The position numbers were made by a program, and so were the translations under genes. This document shows positions 5,813-64,000 of a stretch of 64,000 bases of DNA, in pieces; the first letter of the stretch is position 1, and each line of letters begins with the position of its first letter. The stretch lies in the NCBI GenBank assembly GCA_039794565.1, contig JAUQVX010000014.1, forward strand, positions 1-64,000. Reading direction: 5' to 3'. Under the pieces are notes generated by a model that did not search any database, had not been told where the DNA came from, and worked only from the letters and a program-made list of their open reading frames with translations. The DNA is from Gloeomargarita sp. SRBZ-1_bins_9. GTDB lineage: Bacteria; Cyanobacteriota; Cyanobacteriia; Gloeomargaritales; Gloeomargaritaceae.

Positions 5813-6544
5813 TTAATTCAACAAGGCCTCCAGGGCGGCCAAATCGGGCACTCGAATCAAGCCTCGTCCCGCCGTCCCCTCCCCCGACCCTTGGGCGCCT
5901 TTGCCGGCGACCCGCTCGATGACCCCTTCTTGCTCCAACTTGCGCAACACCCGGGTGACCGTTTCCCGCGTTAACCCACTGAGACTGCCCAGTTCCCGGT
6001 GGGGCAGGTTAGGAATTTCAATCCCCCGGGCGCTGGTGCGTCCCTGTCCTTCCGCCAGAAACAGCAATACATCCGCCACCCGCGCCACGCTATCCGACTC
6101 TCGCACCCGCAACCGCCGGTTCAGTTGCCGCAGCCGCCGGGCCATCAACTGGGACAGCCGCAATCCCATCAACGGCTCCGTCCGCACCAGGTGCATAAAG
6201 TCCCGCCCCGACAGGCCACCCACCAGCACGGGCGTCACACTTACCACATCGCAGGAGCGGGGGGAAGCCGCCAGGGCCGCCATTTCCCCAAAGATTTCCC
6301 CCGGTCCCAGAATATTCAGGGTAATTTCCCGCCCGTCCCGGTTATGGGTGCGGATCTTGACCCAGCCCTCGATGATGAAGTACACGGTGCCGCCCCCCTC
6401 TTCCTCCATAATCAGGATTTTGTCCGCCCCGTGGGGGGCCAGGGATAACCGCTGACCAACCCACTCCAAGGCCGTTGACTCCCAACCCTCGAACAGGGGC
6501 GAATGCCGCAAGGCGGTGAGGATGTCGGGGGTGGGTCTGGTCAT
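5813..6544 (-). CDS. Crp/Fnr-family transcriptional regulator
   Basis: Regulator of 243 residues: N-terminal cyclic-nucleotide-binding beta-barrel (about 15-130), dimerisation helix, and C-terminal winged helix with the recognition helix in LSGLTRETVTRVLRKLEQEG. In the phosphate-binding cassette (GEIFGEMAAL, then PRS) the Glu, Arg and Ser that contact cAMP in Crp are all present, so it may bind a cyclic nucleotide and resembles cyanobacterial SyCRP1. NtcA, the other cyanobacterial member, is less likely because it lacks this cassette. The start is the ATG at 6544, preceded by AGAGGG. It is transcribed divergently from the nuclease gene, across about 160 bases. Confidence 0.82.
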   Translation of the reverse strand: MTRPTPDILTALRHSPLFEGWESTALEWVGQRLSLAPHGADKILIMEEEGGGTVYFIIEGWVKIRTHNRDGREITLNILGPGEIFGEMAALAASPRSCDVVSVTPVLVGGLSGRDFMHLVRTEPLMGLRLSQLMARRLRQLNRRLRVRESDSVARVADVLLFLAEGQGRTSARGIEIPNLPHRELGSLSGLTRETVTRVLRKLEQEGVIERVAGKGAQGSGEGTAGRGLIRVPDLAALEALLN

Positions 6545-56352: not shown

Positions 56353-57312
56353 CTACCCCTGCAAGCCATATCTTTGATACGCCCGCTGCAGTTCCTGACT
56401 CAATTCTTGAGCAAACCAATCCGGTTCCAGCACCTGGGCCTGGGCACCGTATTGCAACAATCGCTGGCGCAACCAAAATAGGGAATCCACCGTTGCCTCC
56501 AAGTCCACGAACGTTCCATCCGCAGCAGTGGCCACTACCTGTTCGTAGGGCCGCCGGGGTTGGTAGGTTGCCAGCTCCCCGTATAACCGATAGCGCACGG
56601 TCAAAGTGGGAAAACATTGGCGGCGCCAGGGAACCTTTGACGCGGGACCCACCCCGACGATCCGGTCCACCCGCAGGGTGAAGTTTTCTTCCACACTGGG
56701 CGAGGGCAGGCGACGCACTAGGGGAATGGGGGGATTCGGCACCCAGGCAAACAAGTACAACACCCCATTGTGCCAGCGCAGTTCCGAGTAATCGCAATCC
56801 CACTGACTCTCCTGCCCCGAGGACGCTCGGTAGCGGACCACAAAACGCCGCCGCTGCCGCATCCGCTCCTGCAAATCGGCCAGCAACACCTGGTAGTGGG
56901 GTTCGCTGTAATCAACGGGGGGGTGAAACTCCGCCTTCAAGGCCCTGGGAAAGTCCGTTTCCTGGAGCCGTCCCACCTGCAGCAGGTGATGCGCTTCCCG
57001 GTTGAACCCCAGCGCCGCCAGTAGGTGGGTCCCTAGCGCCAATGCTCGCCTTTGCTCGACCGACAGCAGCACTGGAAACGCTGAAGCCACTAGCTCGTAG
57101 GGACGATGGGGGCCACTGCGAATCTCAAACCCACAGTCCCGCAGTCGGCGAATGGCTCGCACCACCTTTTGCTCCAGGTCCCCCACCGGTTGCTTCTGCT
57201 GCTCCAGCCAACCCTCCAAAGCCACCACCAACTCCCGTCGCCACCGGGGTTTCTCCGTCAAAAGCCGCAACAACTCTAAGTAGAATGCTAAGTTGTCATT
57301 TTTTGATAACAT
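56353..57312 (-). CDS. WYL-domain transcriptional regulator, CRISPR-associated
   Basis: Protein of 319 residues: an N-terminal winged-helix-like region (about 1-75; NLAFYLELLRLLTEK, VVRAIRRLRDCGFEI), a middle WYL sensor domain (about 140-230; MRQRRRFVVRYRAS, LRWHNGVLYLFAW) and a C-terminal WCX-type extension (about 240-315). WYL proteins bind nucleic acid-derived ligands and commonly regulate CRISPR-Cas loci. Here it is divergent from cas3 with a 48-base gap, so control of the I-D operon and of itself is likely. The ATG at 57312 is preferred; an earlier start overlaps the promoter and cas3. Confidence 0.85.
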   Translation of the reverse strand: MLSKNDNLAFYLELLRLLTEKPRWRRELVVALEGWLEQQKQPVGDLEQKVVRAIRRLRDCGFEIRSGPHRPYELVASAFPVLLSVEQRRALALGTHLLAALGFNREAHHLLQVGRLQETDFPRALKAEFHPPVDYSEPHYQVLLADLQERMRQRRRFVVRYRASSGQESQWDCDYSELRWHNGVLYLFAWVPNPPIPLVRRLPSPSVEENFTLRVDRIVGVGPASKVPWRRQCFPTLTVRYRLYGELATYQPRRPYEQVVATAADGTFVDLEATVDSLFWLRQRLLQYGAQAQVLEPDWFAQELSQELQRAYQRYGLQG

Positions 57313-57360
57313 ACTCGCGAAAAAGTGGTTTAGGATGAATGTGTTGCTAATGACGAGTAT
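57311..57360. promoter_or_regulatory. Divergent WYL/cas3 promoter with flanking inverted repeat
   Basis: The 48-base AT-rich gap between the two start codons is framed by an inverted repeat, ATACTCG at 57311-57317 and CGAGTAT at 57354-57360, each touching a start codon. This symmetry is what an operator controlling both directions would look like. -10 and -35 elements cannot be assigned with confidence. Confidence 0.45.
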
Positions 57361-59487
57361 ATGAGATTTCTGGTTCAACCCTTGTATGTAGCCCGAAACC
57401 CTGGTGTAGGGCAGTGTCCGTTGGGGTGTACTCGCCAATGTTGGGTCATGGAAGAGGCTCCCAACTTTGCGGCGTCCTCAGGGCAAAGTTGTCCCCTGTT
57501 CCAGCACCAGGCTGAAACTTGGGCAGCCCTACAGCAGGGGCAAGCCAATGTTATTTTCAACACCGCCCCTACGGGTGCCGGGAAAACCCTGGCGGCATTG
57601 GGGTTGGGGTTGTGCCAGCCGAACCAGCGGACTATGGCCCTTTATCCCACCATTGAACTGATTGAGGACCAGGTGCGCAGTTTACGGGGGTGGCACGAGC
57701 GGTTGGGACAGGATTTCGACCAGCGGGTGGAGCATTTATACGGGGAGGAACTCAGTCGGCGGGTGGTCCAGGGCACCAGCAGCCGGTTTGAGGTATTGGC
57801 CCAGGCGATCCAGCAAAAACCCCTCCTACTGACCAACCCGGATATTTTCCATCTGATCGCCCATTTCCGTTACCGAGACCCCCACTACAGTAGTGATTTG
57901 CTGCCCCTGGCGCTGGCGGATTTTCCCCATGTATGGGTAGCCGATGAGTTTCACCTGTTTGGGGCGCACCAGGAGGCTGCCATGTTGAATACCATGGTTT
58001 TTCTGCGGGCGGTCCGAGGGGACCAGCGGCCCTACCGGTTTGTCTTTACTTCGGCGACACCCAACCCTGCGTTTCAAGACCAACTGCAGCAGGCGGGTTT
58101 TAAGGTGCAGGAAATCAATTGTCGGAGTGTTGCCCAAGATACACCAGGCTATGCGCTCGTGGCGCAACCTGTGACCTTGGAGTTTGTCCAATTGACACGG
58201 GAGCAAACAGCCAGCGATTGGCTCCTGGACCATGCCGAAGTCATCCGCCAGATTCTGCAGGCGGAATCACCGGGGCGGGGGCTGGTGATTCTCAACTCCC
58301 TTGCCCAGGTCACCCAGGTAGCGAGGCAGTTAAGGGAGCGTTTGCCGGAGGTGATGGTGCGGGAAATCAGCGGGCGCATGGACCGGCGACAGCGGGCGCA
58401 GACCCAGGCGCTTTTGCACCAGGCACAGCAACCAGTACTGGTGGTGGCCACATCGGCGGCCGACGTAGGGGTGGATTTTCGCATCCATTTGCTCATCACC
58501 GAGGGGAGTAACAGTGCGACGGTGATTCAACGCCTGGGGCGGGTGGGCCGTCATCCCGGTTTCGGGGTCTATCGCGCCTATGTGTTGATAGCCGGTTCTA
58601 CGCCCTGGGTGTCGGAACGGCTGCGGCAGCAATGGCAGTCGGAGCAGCCGGTGGCGCGTCCGCACCTGGTGGAGATTATTCGCCAAGCCTTTGATCCGCC
58701 GCCCACCTTTCCGGAGTATCAGAGGCGCTGGGGGGCCTTACAGGCGCAGGGGTTGCTCTGGCAGATGAGGCAGGAGCATGGAGCCGTTTTCCAACAGACC
58801 TACGAGCGCATGGTGGCAGCTCTCCAGCAGGTTTATGGCCAGCAACTGCAACCCCGGTTGGGGGGCTGGCGCCGGTTAGCCGACCAGGGGGACCTGGGCC
58901 GAGCCATCCAGCAGGAGCTATTGCGGTTTCGGGGCGGGACTACCCTGCAGGCAGCGGTGTGGGATGAGCACTCCTTTTACACCTATGACCTGCTGCGGCT
59001 ATTGCCCTATGTGGACGTCGAACTTTTGACTCGGGAAGACTTTTTGCAGGCGGTGGAATCAGCTGGTTTCAGTCCCCTGGCGTTTCCTCCCGAGGGGATA
59101 ACCCTTTATCTGCGGGTACGGAAGTGGCGGGAGCAACGTTTGCTGGTGAAATTGCAGTGCCATCAGCCCGCGACCAATTTGCGCACCGGCGAGCTGACGC
59201 TATTGACGGGAGTAGCTGTGTCAGGACCTCCCCACGTCCGGGAAATCAGTCAGGTGTTAGCGCGCCAGAAACTGCTAGCTTTCCTGGTGCCCCTGTCGGA
59301 TCAGCAATCCGCCGACACAGTGCGTCGCCATTTACGGTTGAGCGCCCTATTTGGGCTATACGATTTACAGGACGGGGATGGCTACCGCTACGCCTGTGCC
59401 TTTAACCAAGATGCCTTATTATTAGAGGCCCTGAGATCCCGGCTCACACCCTTTTTACGCAACGACCATTCGTCATTGATTTTTTAG
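57361..59487 (+). CDS. cas3: Type I-D CRISPR-associated helicase Cas3'
   Basis: Superfamily 2 helicase of 708 residues of the type I-D kind, without a fused HD nuclease (in I-D the HD domain is in Cas10d). Walker A is TAPTGAGKT at about 68-76, the DExH box is VADEFHLFG, motif III is FTSATPN and motif VI is QRLGRVGRHPG. The N-terminus FLVQPLYVARNPG matches I-D homologues, which supports the ATG at 57361; an ATG at 57448 is an alternative. It unwinds target DNA after Cascade recognition. The cas10d gene follows after 11 bases. Confidence 0.92.
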   Translation: MRFLVQPLYVARNPGVGQCPLGCTRQCWVMEEAPNFAASSGQSCPLFQHQAETWAALQQGQANVIFNTAPTGAGKTLAALGLGLCQPNQRTMALYPTIELIEDQVRSLRGWHERLGQDFDQRVEHLYGEELSRRVVQGTSSRFEVLAQAIQQKPLLLTNPDIFHLIAHFRYRDPHYSSDLLPLALADFPHVWVADEFHLFGAHQEAAMLNTMVFLRAVRGDQRPYRFVFTSATPNPAFQDQLQQAGFKVQEINCRSVAQDTPGYALVAQPVTLEFVQLTREQTASDWLLDHAEVIRQILQAESPGRGLVILNSLAQVTQVARQLRERLPEVMVREISGRMDRRQRAQTQALLHQAQQPVLVVATSAADVGVDFRIHLLITEGSNSATVIQRLGRVGRHPGFGVYRAYVLIAGSTPWVSERLRQQWQSEQPVARPHLVEIIRQAFDPPPTFPEYQRRWGALQAQGLLWQMRQEHGAVFQQTYERMVAALQQVYGQQLQPRLGGWRRLADQGDLGRAIQQELLRFRGGTTLQAAVWDEHSFYTYDLLRLLPYVDVELLTREDFLQAVESAGFSPLAFPPEGITLYLRVRKWREQRLLVKLQCHQPATNLRTGELTLLTGVAVSGPPHVREISQVLARQKLLAFLVPLSDQQSADTVRRHLRLSALFGLYDLQDGDGYRYACAFNQDALLLEALRSRLTPFLRNDHSSLIF

Positions 59488-59498
59488 AGGAGTTAGCC

Positions 59499-62432
59499 AT
59501 GAGCCTGTTACGGACATTACTTTTACGCACCCTTCCACCGGAGACGGACCCCATTTTGCGCACCTATATCGAAACCGTGGTGCCAGCAATGGAGCAGAAA
59601 TTTGGTGGTATTACGGCGCTGGGAGGTTCCCAGGAGGTTCATTTCCACATCCTGCAGGCCAAAGGGGACCCACAGGCCGCTGTCAAGGCCCAACGTTATG
59701 CCCAGCGACCTGAGCAAAGCTTACTGGTTCACGTCCTCAATGCCCTAAGCATTGCCTGGCAGTTAATCCCCTACTTAGAAACGCCCCTCAGTGACACGGA
59801 AAAACGTTTATTGTGCTTGGGGCTAACTCTGCACGACTACAACAAGTGGTGTGCAGGCGATGAGCAAGACCCCCCTCTGGCCAGCGATGTTGCAGGCATC
59901 AAAGCCCTCTGTGCGTCCCTGGGGGAAAAACTAAACTTTGCCGGCTTCTGGCCTGAGTGGCGTACGTATCTGACAGAAATCGGCTATTTAGCCCAAAACA
60001 CCCAAGCCAAGGTCGGCACCAACCTCCCCAAGGTCAACTGGGAGCCATTTCAGATTGATGATGTAACGCGTCTGGATATGCCTTTGCGGTGGTTATTGCG
60101 CTTTGGGGATTTGGCTGTGCATTTGCAGGACCCCGGCGACCTGGTTACCAGCCAAACCGGCCAAAGCCTGCAAGAAACCCTGTGCTGGTTAAACCTAAAG
60201 CAAAAGCTGGTCTATCACCGATTACGGGACTGCACCGGCATTTTAACTGATGGTATTCACAACGCCGTTTTAGACGCTGCCAAGCAACGGGGCTGGCAAC
60301 CCCTGATCTTTTTTGCCCAGGGGGTTATTTATCTAGCGCCGCCGGATGCCTTGCCACCCCCACTGACGGAATTACAGGACATCATTTGGCAGTGCATCAG
60401 CAACGTTCTCAGCCAGAGGCATATCGGCTTCAAGCGGGACGGCAAAGGGTTAAAAGTGGCTCCCCAGATTCTAGAGCTTTTATCGCCTGCCGACCTGATT
60501 CGCCAGCTTCCCCACGTCATCGAGTCCTATGTCAAAAACGCCAAAAATCCCGCCACACCCAAGCGCTTAGAAAAGTTAGATTTAACCCCCCAGGAGCGGC
60601 AATTTTTGGCTCGAGGCGCTGACTTAAGGGCCGATCGTTTAGCTGAATTTATTACCTTTGTGCAACGGGAGTTTTTCAGCTGCTGTATCCCTGAATTTAC
60701 GCGTTGGATGCTGGAGAAATTGGAGCTAGCAACCGAATTCAGGCCCGAACAAACGCAGGAGCAAGCCGGCGGCGTGATTTACGGCTGGTATCGGGCAGCG
60801 GCCCACTTTATTGCCCAGCATGCTACTTGGGATGACCGACAGGCGATGGAACATTTACAAACCCTAGCCAACGACCTGGCCAGCTGGGCCGCGCAAAGGC
60901 AATTACTGCCGGTGCAGAGCAGTCCAACTCAGACCACCTTTCGTGAATATTTAGCCCACTATTTAGAGCTACAGGGCTGGGAGCCATCAGCACCGGCAGT
61001 GGCTACTGAACTCAGTCGTTATACAGAAGCCAAAACCCGTGAGGCCCAGGCTCCACTTTGTTCCCTCAGCTCCGGCGAATTTGACACCGAAGAGCAGTTG
61101 GATTCGGTAGTGTTATTCAAGCCCCAGCAATATAGCAACAAAAATCCCCTAGGTGGGCGGCAAGTTAAGCGGGGGATTTCTCGGATATGGGCCTTAGAAA
61201 TGCTGTTGCGTCGGACTTTTTGGTCCGCCCAGCGTATACCCGAAGAAGACCAAAACCCCATCTTTTTGTATCTGTTTCCGGCCTATGTGTATTCGCCAGC
61301 TGTAGCCCAGGCCATTCGCCTACTCGTCAAAGAACTTAAGTCGGTGAACTTTTGGGACCTGCATCGTTATTGGCTCGAGCAGGGCATGGAGGTCAGTAGC
61401 CTGCGCCACTACAACTGGCTATTAACCCCTGATGACCGTTGCACTTCCTCGCGGCAGACCTACACGCGAGAAGATTTGCCCTTTTTAGCCGTTACCTACA
61501 CCACCACCCGCGGCAAAACGGTGGCCGAAGCCTGGGTAGAACCCCTATTTTTGGGACTGCTGTTGCCGTATTTACTAGGCATTAAAGTAGTGGTTACCCC
61601 CAGTCCCATTCCCCTGTACGACAGCGACAGTGACTTTCTAGAATCCATCAAATTAGACGGTCCACCTGATTTTTGGCACGTGTTGGCGTTACCGACTTCC
61701 ATCTATCTGCGCAACTGGACCCAGCAGCAAGTTCAAGACCTGGGGCAGATGCTGAATCGTTTACTGGTGGCCTACAGCCTACATTTGAGCAGTCGGGGGC
61801 AGCCCCCTGATGCCCGTTGGCAGGACCTACCGCGCACCATTCGCGACGTCCAAACGGACATTTGGTTTCTCTTTGCCATTGCCCAAGAAGGATTACGCAA
61901 CGGTAACCGTAAACCCAGTGCCCAGGAAGTGAAGCGTTACTGGCACTATGCAGAACTTTGGTCACAAGGAGATGTTGCTATGCAAACCAAACTCAAAATC
62001 ACCCAGCGATTGGTGGAGGAATACCGCCAGTTTTATCGGCCCCGTCTGGAGGAATCCAGCCACACTTTGCTATTGCCTTTAACCAAGGCTCTCGACCACA
62101 TCCTATCCGTTCCTGAGGATTGGGACGATGAAGAGATCATCCTGCAGGGGGCCGGCATTTTACAGGACGCCATCAAGCGGCAGGAAGTGGCCAAACGCCC
62201 CATCATGTGTGATAAAAGCAAACCGTTTGCCGAGCGGCGCCGTCTTGAACTCCAAGCCATTTATCAGTTTATGTCCACTTGTGTCCATGAGTTGTTTTGC
62301 CAGCTGTGCAAAGGAGACCGCGCCCTGTTGCAAAAACATCGCAACCGGTTAAAATCCGGTGCCGAATTTGCCTATTGCCTTCTGGCCCTTCAGAATGAAC
62401 AAGCCCAAGCAGGTTTAGCCCAACCCAACTAA
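59499..62432 (+). CDS. cas10d: Type I-D large subunit Cas10d (Csc3) with HD nuclease
   Basis: Large subunit of 977 residues. The N-terminal HD nuclease domain is seen in HVLNALSIAWQ (His78) and LTLHDYNKW (His112, Asp113). The palm domains are degenerate, and no GGDD cyclase motif is seen, as expected for Cas10d, which does not make cyclic oligoadenylate. The C-terminal 150 residues are helical and coincide with the separately translated Cas11d small subunit. SD GAGGAG precedes the ATG. The gene lies between cas3 and csc2, the usual I-D order. Confidence 0.93.
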   Translation: MSLLRTLLLRTLPPETDPILRTYIETVVPAMEQKFGGITALGGSQEVHFHILQAKGDPQAAVKAQRYAQRPEQSLLVHVLNALSIAWQLIPYLETPLSDTEKRLLCLGLTLHDYNKWCAGDEQDPPLASDVAGIKALCASLGEKLNFAGFWPEWRTYLTEIGYLAQNTQAKVGTNLPKVNWEPFQIDDVTRLDMPLRWLLRFGDLAVHLQDPGDLVTSQTGQSLQETLCWLNLKQKLVYHRLRDCTGILTDGIHNAVLDAAKQRGWQPLIFFAQGVIYLAPPDALPPPLTELQDIIWQCISNVLSQRHIGFKRDGKGLKVAPQILELLSPADLIRQLPHVIESYVKNAKNPATPKRLEKLDLTPQERQFLARGADLRADRLAEFITFVQREFFSCCIPEFTRWMLEKLELATEFRPEQTQEQAGGVIYGWYRAAAHFIAQHATWDDRQAMEHLQTLANDLASWAAQRQLLPVQSSPTQTTFREYLAHYLELQGWEPSAPAVATELSRYTEAKTREAQAPLCSLSSGEFDTEEQLDSVVLFKPQQYSNKNPLGGRQVKRGISRIWALEMLLRRTFWSAQRIPEEDQNPIFLYLFPAYVYSPAVAQAIRLLVKELKSVNFWDLHRYWLEQGMEVSSLRHYNWLLTPDDRCTSSRQTYTREDLPFLAVTYTTTRGKTVAEAWVEPLFLGLLLPYLLGIKVVVTPSPIPLYDSDSDFLESIKLDGPPDFWHVLALPTSIYLRNWTQQQVQDLGQMLNRLLVAYSLHLSSRGQPPDARWQDLPRTIRDVQTDIWFLFAIAQEGLRNGNRKPSAQEVKRYWHYAELWSQGDVAMQTKLKITQRLVEEYRQFYRPRLEESSHTLLLPLTKALDHILSVPEDWDDEEIILQGAGILQDAIKRQEVAKRPIMCDKSKPFAERRRLELQAIYQFMSTCVHELFCQLCKGDRALLQKHRNRLKSGAEFAYCLLALQNEQAQAGLAQPN
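61966..61979 (+). promoter_or_regulatory. Internal ribosome binding site for Cas11d
   Basis: AAGGAG at 61966-61971 followed by an 8-base spacer before an in-frame ATG at 61980 inside cas10d. Spacing and sequence are ideal for initiation and are unlikely by chance at just this place. Confidence 0.7.
61980..62432 (+). CDS. cas11d: Cas11d small subunit, internally translated from cas10d
   Basis: In-frame internal product of 150 residues (codons 828-977 of cas10d) starting MQTKLKITQRLVEEYRQFY. It is helical throughout, with a Cys-rich stretch (MSTCVHELFCQLCKG). Type I-D systems are known to make their small subunit by separate translation from the 3' end of cas10d, and the length fits. The strong Shine-Dalgarno sequence supports it here. 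It would line the belly of the effector complex. Evidence is the ribosome site and family knowledge, not homology seen by search. Confidence 0.7.
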   Translation: MQTKLKITQRLVEEYRQFYRPRLEESSHTLLLPLTKALDHILSVPEDWDDEEIILQGAGILQDAIKRQEVAKRPIMCDKSKPFAERRRLELQAIYQFMSTCVHELFCQLCKGDRALLQKHRNRLKSGAEFAYCLLALQNEQAQAGLAQPN

Positions 62433-62449: not shown

Positions 62450-63544
62450 ATGACCACCAAGAAACTACCCATTCAATCAGAGGCTCTGCAGGCTCTGCAG
62501 TCTCAACTGCATAAAGCTTTTCCCCGGCTGGCTTCTGGGAAATACGTTCACTTTTTCCTAGTGCGTCACAGTCGTTCCTTCCCCGTTTTTCAAACCGATG
62601 GGGTGCTCAATACTGCCCGCGTACAGGCTGGTTTACAATCAACCAAGATGATGAGCCGACTGGTGATATTCAAGCGCAAGCAAGTGACCCCTGAGCGGTT
62701 GATGGGGCGGGAGTTATTGCGGGCTTTAGGACTCACCAGTGGCAACGAAGGTGACGCCAACTACTGCCAGTACAACGGCGAAAACACCTGCAAAAAATGC
62801 CCCGATTGCATTATTTATGGCTTTGCCATTGGCAATCAAGGGTCTGAGCGCTCCAAGGTATATTCCGACTCCGCCTTTTCGCTGACCCCCTATGAAATTT
62901 CCCACCAAAGTTTTACCTTTAATGCCCCCTCCGAAGCTGGGACCATGAGTGAGCAGGGCGAAATGCGCAGTTCTATCAACGAACTGGACCATGTGCTGCC
63001 TGAGGTTAACTTTCCGGCAGTGGAAACCCTGCGTGACCCCACGTGGGAAGCCTTTATTTACGTACTGGGGAACTTGCTACGCACCAAACGTTACGGCGCC
63101 CAAGAATCGCGCACGGGTACCATGACCAACCACATTGTCGGCATTGCCCTATGCGATGGTGAAGTCTTTAGCAATTTACACTTCACCCAAGCCCTGTATG
63201 ATGCCCTCAAAGCCCGAGGTGAGATCAACGGTCCCATTGCCGATATTTGCCAGCAGGCCAGTCAAGTAGCGCAAGAATTGCTCACCCAGGAACCTGTCAC
63301 CAAACAACAGCTCATCTTTGGTGAAGCTCTAGAGCAACTGCTTGCCGATGTAACCCACATTTATCAAAGCAGTGACCAACTGCGAACTGTACTTGAAACC
63401 CTCTACGGGCAAACCACCACCTATGCCCAGGAGTACGGTGCGTTGCATGGAGCTAAAGAAGAGGGCAAGAGAAAGGGGCGTAAGCGCCGGGACCAGGGGG
63501 ATGAGTCCGATGCTACTGAGAGCGAGCAGGAAACCCTCTTTTAG
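62450..63544 (+). CDS. csc2: Type I-D backbone subunit Csc2 (Cas7d)
   Basis: Protein of 364 residues, RAMP/Cas7-like, which polymerises along the CRISPR RNA. A cysteine cluster CQYNGENTCKKCPDC may bind zinc, and YGFAIGNQGSERSKVYSDSAFSL is a characteristic segment. The C-terminus is a lysine- and acid-rich tail. SD AAAGGAGGTG is the best in the window. csc1 follows after 14 bases. Confidence 0.93.
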   Translation: MTTKKLPIQSEALQALQSQLHKAFPRLASGKYVHFFLVRHSRSFPVFQTDGVLNTARVQAGLQSTKMMSRLVIFKRKQVTPERLMGRELLRALGLTSGNEGDANYCQYNGENTCKKCPDCIIYGFAIGNQGSERSKVYSDSAFSLTPYEISHQSFTFNAPSEAGTMSEQGEMRSSINELDHVLPEVNFPAVETLRDPTWEAFIYVLGNLLRTKRYGAQESRTGTMTNHIVGIALCDGEVFSNLHFTQALYDALKARGEINGPIADICQQASQVAQELLTQEPVTKQQLIFGEALEQLLADVTHIYQSSDQLRTVLETLYGQTTTYAQEYGALHGAKEEGKRKGRKRRDQGDESDATESEQETLF

Positions 63545-63558
63545 TTGGGAGCAGGATC

Positions 63559-64000
63559 ATGCCCATTTACCAATGCACCTTGACCCTGCATGACAATGTC
63601 TTTTTTGCCACCCGCGAGATGGGAATTCTCTACGAAACAGAGAAGTATCTCCACAACTGGGCACTGAGTTATGCCCTATTTGCAGGCATCCACGTCATGC
63701 AGTCGTACCGGCTGGTGGGTCCAGACGCCCAGCGCCCTAGCTACCTTGACCCCACCAGTGAGCAAAATCTCTTACCACTCAATAAGGAGGGAATTTATGT
63801 ATTTCCAGCCAAACCGTTGCAATGGTCCTACCAGGTTCATACGTTTAAGGCAGCCCAAGTTCACTACTATGCTGAAGCGGTGAAATTTGGCGACTGCACC
63901 GGCAATTTTCCTATCAATTACGGGCGGGCAAAGGAGCTGGCTGTAGGTAGTATTTATCAAACCTACATCCTTGCCCCAGAAACGGTTCAGATTCCCCGCT
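63559..64000 (+). CDS. csc1: Type I-D subunit Csc1 (Cas5d), truncated by the window end
   Basis: First 147 codons of a RAMP/Cas5-like protein (MPIYQCTLTLHDNVFFATRE start) that binds the crRNA 5' handle. The frame is open to base 64000. YPTSYLLAYAL-like NWALSYALFAGIHVMQSYRL is typical of Csc1. GGGAGCAGG precedes the ATG. Cas6, Cas4, Cas1, Cas2 and a CRISPR array are expected beyond the window. Confidence 0.88.
   Translation, partial: MPIYQCTLTLHDNVFFATREMGILYETEKYLHNWALSYALFAGIHVMQSYRLVGPDAQRPSYLDPTSEQNLLPLNKEGIYVFPAKPLQWSYQVHTFKAAQVHYYAEAVKFGDCTGNFPINYGRAKELAVGSIYQTYILAPETVQIPR

Follow-up and report, generated by a model that had tools for sequence, protein, structure and literature searches.

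Genes at the divergent WYL/cas3' locus

The window analysed here is a stretch of 64,000 nucleotides from a Gloeomargarita genome, and towards its end a gene for a WYL regulator and the helicase gene cas3' are divergently oriented (Table 1). The ATG of the WYL gene occupies 57312-57310 on the minus strand and cas3' begins at 57361 on the plus strand, leaving a gap of 48 bp (57313-57360). The first-pass annotation had described this pair, its 48-bp spacing and its association with a type I-D system, all of which were borne out by the coordinates and the gene identities; the profiles for Cas3' (TIGR03158), Cas10d/Csc3 (TIGR03174), Csc2 (TIGR03157) and Csc1 (TIGR03159) all scored above the NCBIfam cut-offs. 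Beyond the window, the contig carries ORFs named by eye, from their order and sequence, as putative cas6, cas4 and cas1, and an array of 37-bp repeats follows the putative cas1 ORF and reaches the contig end.

The WYL protein carries the Pfam domains WYL (PF13280) and WCX (PF25583), and its AlphaFold model (pLDDT 89) has the wHTH-WYL-WCX fold. The best structural matches of this model were PafBC and DriD, followed by CapW and BrxR. A profile search of PDB sequences with the WYL protein gave no match at E<=0.01, BrxR included; the predicted fold does resemble that of BrxR. The protein is 47.7% identical over 97% of its length to Sll7009, encoded on pSYSA of Synechocystis 6803 in the same divergent arrangement with cas3'. 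Sll7009 is described as regulating CRISPR1, the I-D system of Synechocystis, negatively, since deletion of sll7009 raised crRNA (PMC10212523, PMC4012209). By analogy with the WYL family, the Gloeomargarita protein may be responsive to a ligand. One congener encodes a second, contig-truncated WYL paralog (G001:C22:3-638, locus L023) that is 73% identical to the query.

Table 1. Features of the WYL/cas3' locus (positions in the window)
Feature	Position	Strand	Basis
Winged-HTH regulator with WYL and WCX domains (319 aa); Synechocystis Sll7009 ortholog	56353..57312	-	PF13280, PF25583, fold
Candidate WYL operator, 27-bp imperfect palindrome CTAAGTTGTCA-TTTTT-TGATAACATAC	57288..57314	.	conservation in related I-D loci
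Left arm ATACTCG of the 7-bp repeat, probably chance	57311..57317	.	not kept in congeners
-10-like TAGGAT (TANNNT), presumed cas3' promoter	57331..57336	+	exactly 30 bp from operator centre
Predicted cas3' transcription start, approximate	57343..57343	+	inferred, about 7 nt past -10
Right arm CGAGTAT of the 7-bp repeat	57354..57360	.	not conserved
cas3', type I-D helicase	57361..59487	+	TIGR03158 above cut-off; PADLOC Cas3d E=6e-265
cas10d/csc3, next in operon	59499..62432	+	TIGR03174
csc2 (cas7d)	62450..63544	+	PF18320, TIGR03157
csc1 (cas5d), runs beyond window end	63559..64000	+	TIGR03159

The 7-bp inverted repeat at the start codons is probably incidental

As the operator of this region, the first-pass annotation had proposed the inverted repeat ATACTCG/CGAGTAT. 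The repeat is indeed a perfect one of 7 bp and touches both start codons. Two bases of its left arm belong to the WYL start codon. The start codons of the two genes, moreover, are complementary already. Shuffling the 54-bp stretch that includes both of them gave a perfect repeat of 7 bp or longer in 2.9% of cases; among 54-mers drawn at random from the window, the share was 2.1%. Requiring the repeat to be anchored at both ends lowers the frequency to 0.4%, a condition that is post hoc since it was chosen after the repeat had been seen. The gap was then compared in relatives. Three congeners (G001, G006 and G003) keep the WYL/cas3' pair with gaps of 49, 50 and 57 bp, respectively, and the ATACTCG/CGAGTAT pair was absent from all three; the gaps of G001 and G003 contain other, unrelated 7-bp repeats, by chance. 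The annotation had staked its proposal on conservation in close relatives with the same gene pair, and by its own measure the repeat is thus refuted as an operator. That it could still serve as one in this species is very improbable: it exists and adjoins both starts, but besides its absence from the congeners its arm centres lie 43 bp apart, repeats of such kind are common by chance, and the right arm would fall within the predicted cas3' leader. The repeat was therefore rejected as operator and is probably incidental. A minus-strand -10-like TATACT at 57361-57356 overlaps the right arm and is possibly an element of the WYL promoter.

A 27-bp palindrome is conserved upstream of cas3' at type I-D loci

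The alignment of the congeners revealed a different stretch of strongly conserved DNA, TTGTCATTTTTTGATAACAT, spanning the WYL start codon. The candidate operator found here is an imperfect palindrome of 11+5+11 geometry with the core TTGTCATTTTTTGATAA at 57293-57309 and its centre at 57301; it overlaps WYL codons 1-9 and shares 4 bp with the left arm of the 7-bp repeat. By comparison between loci a consensus was derived (AGTTGTWRTCA-N5-TGAYWACAACT). Because the palindrome overlaps the codons for MLSKND in this genome and the congeners, coding could explain part of the local conservation. In distant cyanobacteria the palindrome is located 60-67 bp upstream of cas3' in non-coding DNA, with the central T-tract in either orientation, and conservation due solely to MLSKND coding was rejected since the sites elsewhere are mostly non-coding. 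The 2.2-Mb genome holds a single exact match of the palindrome, hence it was rejected as the box of a global regulator; the combination of palindrome and -10-like box described below also occurs once in this genome, allowing up to one mismatch. In 390 cyanobacterial genomes a tight pattern gave 21 exact matches, 7 of them at I-D loci, the other 14 being little above the level of a reversed-pattern control.

For scoring, the pattern TTGTWRTCA-N5-TGAYWACAA (18 informative positions) was used with a threshold of 13/18 within 160 bp of cas3'. At least 13/18 was reached at 28 of the 34 I-D loci with an orthologous WYL gene, and at none of the 16 control loci (Fisher p=1.5e-8; the loci share ancestry, so that the counts are not independent and p is uncorrected for kinship). 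The controls comprised 4 loci of the same cas3' lineage with a different WYL family and 12 loci of another cas3' lineage; taken by themselves, the former had the site in 0/4 cases (p=0.003). The palindrome was centred at -60 to -67 from cas3' in 25/34 of the loci with the orthologous WYL gene, and in several more it is displaced or has altered arms. A match at -39 in G117 is probably spurious. Most of the scored loci had also contributed to the consensus. Only three, on plasmids found afterwards, were held out, and all three carry the site: Synechocystis 6803 pSYSA, where it scored 14/18 at -61 and is among the weaker ones, Picosynechococcus 7002 pAQ4, where it scored 15/18 at -61 although the two genes are separated by an insertion, and Gloeothece 7822 (17/18 at -66).

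Some loci match the consensus poorly, such as those of G331 and G304. Poorly matching loci often bear an altered palindrome of the same geometry in the same place, ACATCA...TGATGT in G280 and G117 and AGATAGAGCCA-ATATA-TGGCGTTATCT at -58 in Adonisia (L041), the latter recognised by eye, as were some other site assignments in diverged loci. In a diverged subset picked by hand, arm symmetry within sites was 7.3/11, against 6.5 when partners were shuffled (p=0.002); over all 38 sites, tested against swapped arms, p was 0.05. A protein that binds DNA as a dimer would be expected to make both arms change in pairs like this. The Adonisia operator is also the only one with GCCA in place of RTCA as inner arm bases; it is paired with the Adonisia WYL protein (L129), the sole aligned WYL whose predicted recognition helix begins with R where the others have Q (DATRK, elsewhere DxxQK).

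The palindrome follows the WYL gene

Across genomes, the palindrome follows the WYL gene rather than cas3'. In G230 an orthologous WYL gene adjoins a cas3' from the other lineage, yet a site is kept, and one is likewise kept in G142, where most of cas3' has been lost. At three loci (L113, L120 and L121) the WYL gene is remote from cas3' and a further copy of the palindrome lies near the WYL start. At loci with other WYL families, the layout of 11-5-11 palindrome plus box at +30 was not found.

Several individual loci were inspected as well. At L147 (G142, about 2600-2900) cas3' is an N-terminal remnant followed by csc2, and both operator and -10 box are retained. The WYL gene of L155 (G164) contains in-frame stops and is pseudogene-like; its operator next to cas3' nevertheless scores 15/18. 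L042, L064 and L168 have a second WYL family, of about 290 aa and with about 25% identity, together with ACGGACACTTTA-like repeats near cas3' that are possibly the operator of this family.

A -10-like box lies at a fixed distance from the palindrome

On the cas3' strand, a -10-like TANNNT was located exactly 30 bp from the palindrome centre in all sites (39/39), which had been chosen regardless of the box. At +28, +29 and +31 to +34 the frequency was 0/39, and the background is 2% per position. Counting non-redundant loci only, the box was present at +30 in 20/20, and the rule also holds at sites displaced to -78, -131, -145, -164 and -204. The compared sites have no -35 hexamer in common. For the gap itself, a sigma-70 promoter that includes a -35 element was rejected, as a consensus scan found no such pair here. 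Copies of the palindrome on the WYL side lack TANNNT at +30 (7/7). If transcription starts some 7 nt beyond the box, as predicted, the operator centre comes to lie at about -42. In L162 (G183) the operator is present twice before cas3', at -61 and at -131, and TATAGGCT follows 30 bp downstream of either copy, which suggests a duplicated promoter.

Comparison with known regulatory systems

The Sll7009/CRISPR1 locus of Synechocystis 6803 is akin to the one described here in its orthologous WYL gene divergent from cas3', its palindrome at -61 and its TANNNT at +30. It differs in that the gap is 88 bp and the operator lies upstream of, not over, the WYL start codon. On pSYSA the site spans about 6299-6325, and its -10 box 6342-6347. 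No copy of the operator was found in the CRISPR leader of pSYSA, the best match there being 10/18. A search of the open-access literature, outside which the original sll7009 paper falls, yielded neither an operator for Sll7009/CRISPR1 nor a prior description of the palindromic operator.

Among other WYL proteins, the BREX and CBASS repressors BrxR and CapW share the wHTH-WYL-WCX fold. The palindromic operators of BrxR have arms of 10-11 bp around a 5-bp spacer (PMC9122601, PMC9122589), a geometry to which the candidate site with its 11+5+11 consensus conforms. In contrast to the situation here, the BrxR/CapW operators act on a defence operon that includes brxR, and the operator sequence is different. 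DriD of Caulobacter is, together with PafBC, the top structural match. DriD sites keep one fixed distance from the -10 in promoters with poor -35 boxes (PMC12340889), similar to the constant -10 distance without a good -35 observed here. However, the DriD operator is ATACGAC-N7-GTCGTAT, its site is centred on the -35 element and it has no CRISPR link; the distance, here 30 bp from centre to -10, also appears to differ from that of DriD. The promoter motif of PafBC is described as non-palindromic and hence unlike the palindrome here. Both DriD and PafBC are activators triggered by single-stranded DNA, while CapW and BrxR are repressors. A comparable layout is known from class II promoters of NtcA, in which the site is centred at about -41.5 and the -10 box is TAN3T (PMC3898017); the predicted position of the operator centre and the -10 box found here agree with these. 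NtcA itself is an unrelated protein with a different box (GTAN8TAC).

Possible modes of control by the WYL protein

Judged from sequence comparison, the neighbouring WYL protein probably acts through the 27-bp palindrome on both genes, whatever the sign. The idea of the first-pass annotation that one WYL protein controls both directions from one site is thus well supported in general; the particular site it had named is not supported. A WYL dimer would bind at 57288-57314, about 42 bp upstream of the presumed cas3' start and over the would-be -35 region, at a promoter that would offer a TANNNT -10 box only. From this position its action on RNA polymerase at the operon promoter (cas3'-cas10d-csc2-csc1) would be direct. 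Since the site covers the WYL start codon in this genome, binding should also block transcription of the regulator's own gene. It is improbable that a transcription factor other than the WYL protein binds the palindrome, because the site tracks the WYL ortholog, is missing with another WYL family and recurs near displaced WYL genes. For NtcA in particular, a GTAN8TAC box is absent from 57288-57314, and the palindrome has no second exact copy in the genome.

The sign of the control is pulled in two directions, the deletion data favouring net repression in uninduced cells and the spacing and fold favouring activation. We prefer a ligand-gated switch, which reconciles both: the free WYL protein would keep cas expression low, in keeping with the sll7009 deletion, and on binding a ligand would become an activator without changing its site. 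Single-stranded DNA, the trigger of DriD and PafBC, is a plausible ligand. Pure repression comes close to this reading in likelihood. The dimer would then cover the cas3' -35 region and the WYL start codon, and a ligand would release it without activation. The raised crRNA after deletion of the orthologous sll7009 (PMC10212523) speaks for this, and BrxR represses from sites of equal arm and spacer length; as the pSYSA array leader has no copy of the site, the crRNA effect could come about via the cas operon. Yet a simple steric repressor tolerates many positions, whereas the spacing is exactly 30 bp at 39/39 sites, which moreover lack a conserved -35 box. The published deletion data alone do not predict this activator-type spacing, which, being rigid, lacking a -35 and matching the NtcA layout (PMC3898017), would suit a class II activator of cas3' that represses its own gene, as many divergent regulators of the LysR type do. 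The nearest folds, those of the activators DriD and PafBC, and the lack of the +30 box at the WYL-side copies point the same way, although the WYL-side sites are few and Sll7009 is described as a negative regulator of CRISPR1 crRNA; overall, we consider plain activation somewhat unlikely.

Implications for type I-D immunity

A further reading, which we put forward as a long shot, is that a DriD-like WYL activator senses single-stranded DNA and switches on cyanobacterial I-D operons, acting from the fixed class II site at a promoter without a -35 and shutting down its own gene. If so, immune expression would be coupled to damaged or invading DNA, with the single-stranded DNA arising, for example, from phage replication or from the action of Cas3'/Cas10d.

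In a 2023 review of type I-D systems, the regulator's mode of control and what it senses were listed as an open question (PMC10212523). The present analysis provides an exact candidate site together with a constant promoter geometry, and points to Synechocystis 6803 as a tractable model strain. The spacing rule moreover predicts the cas start point in many cyanobacteria.
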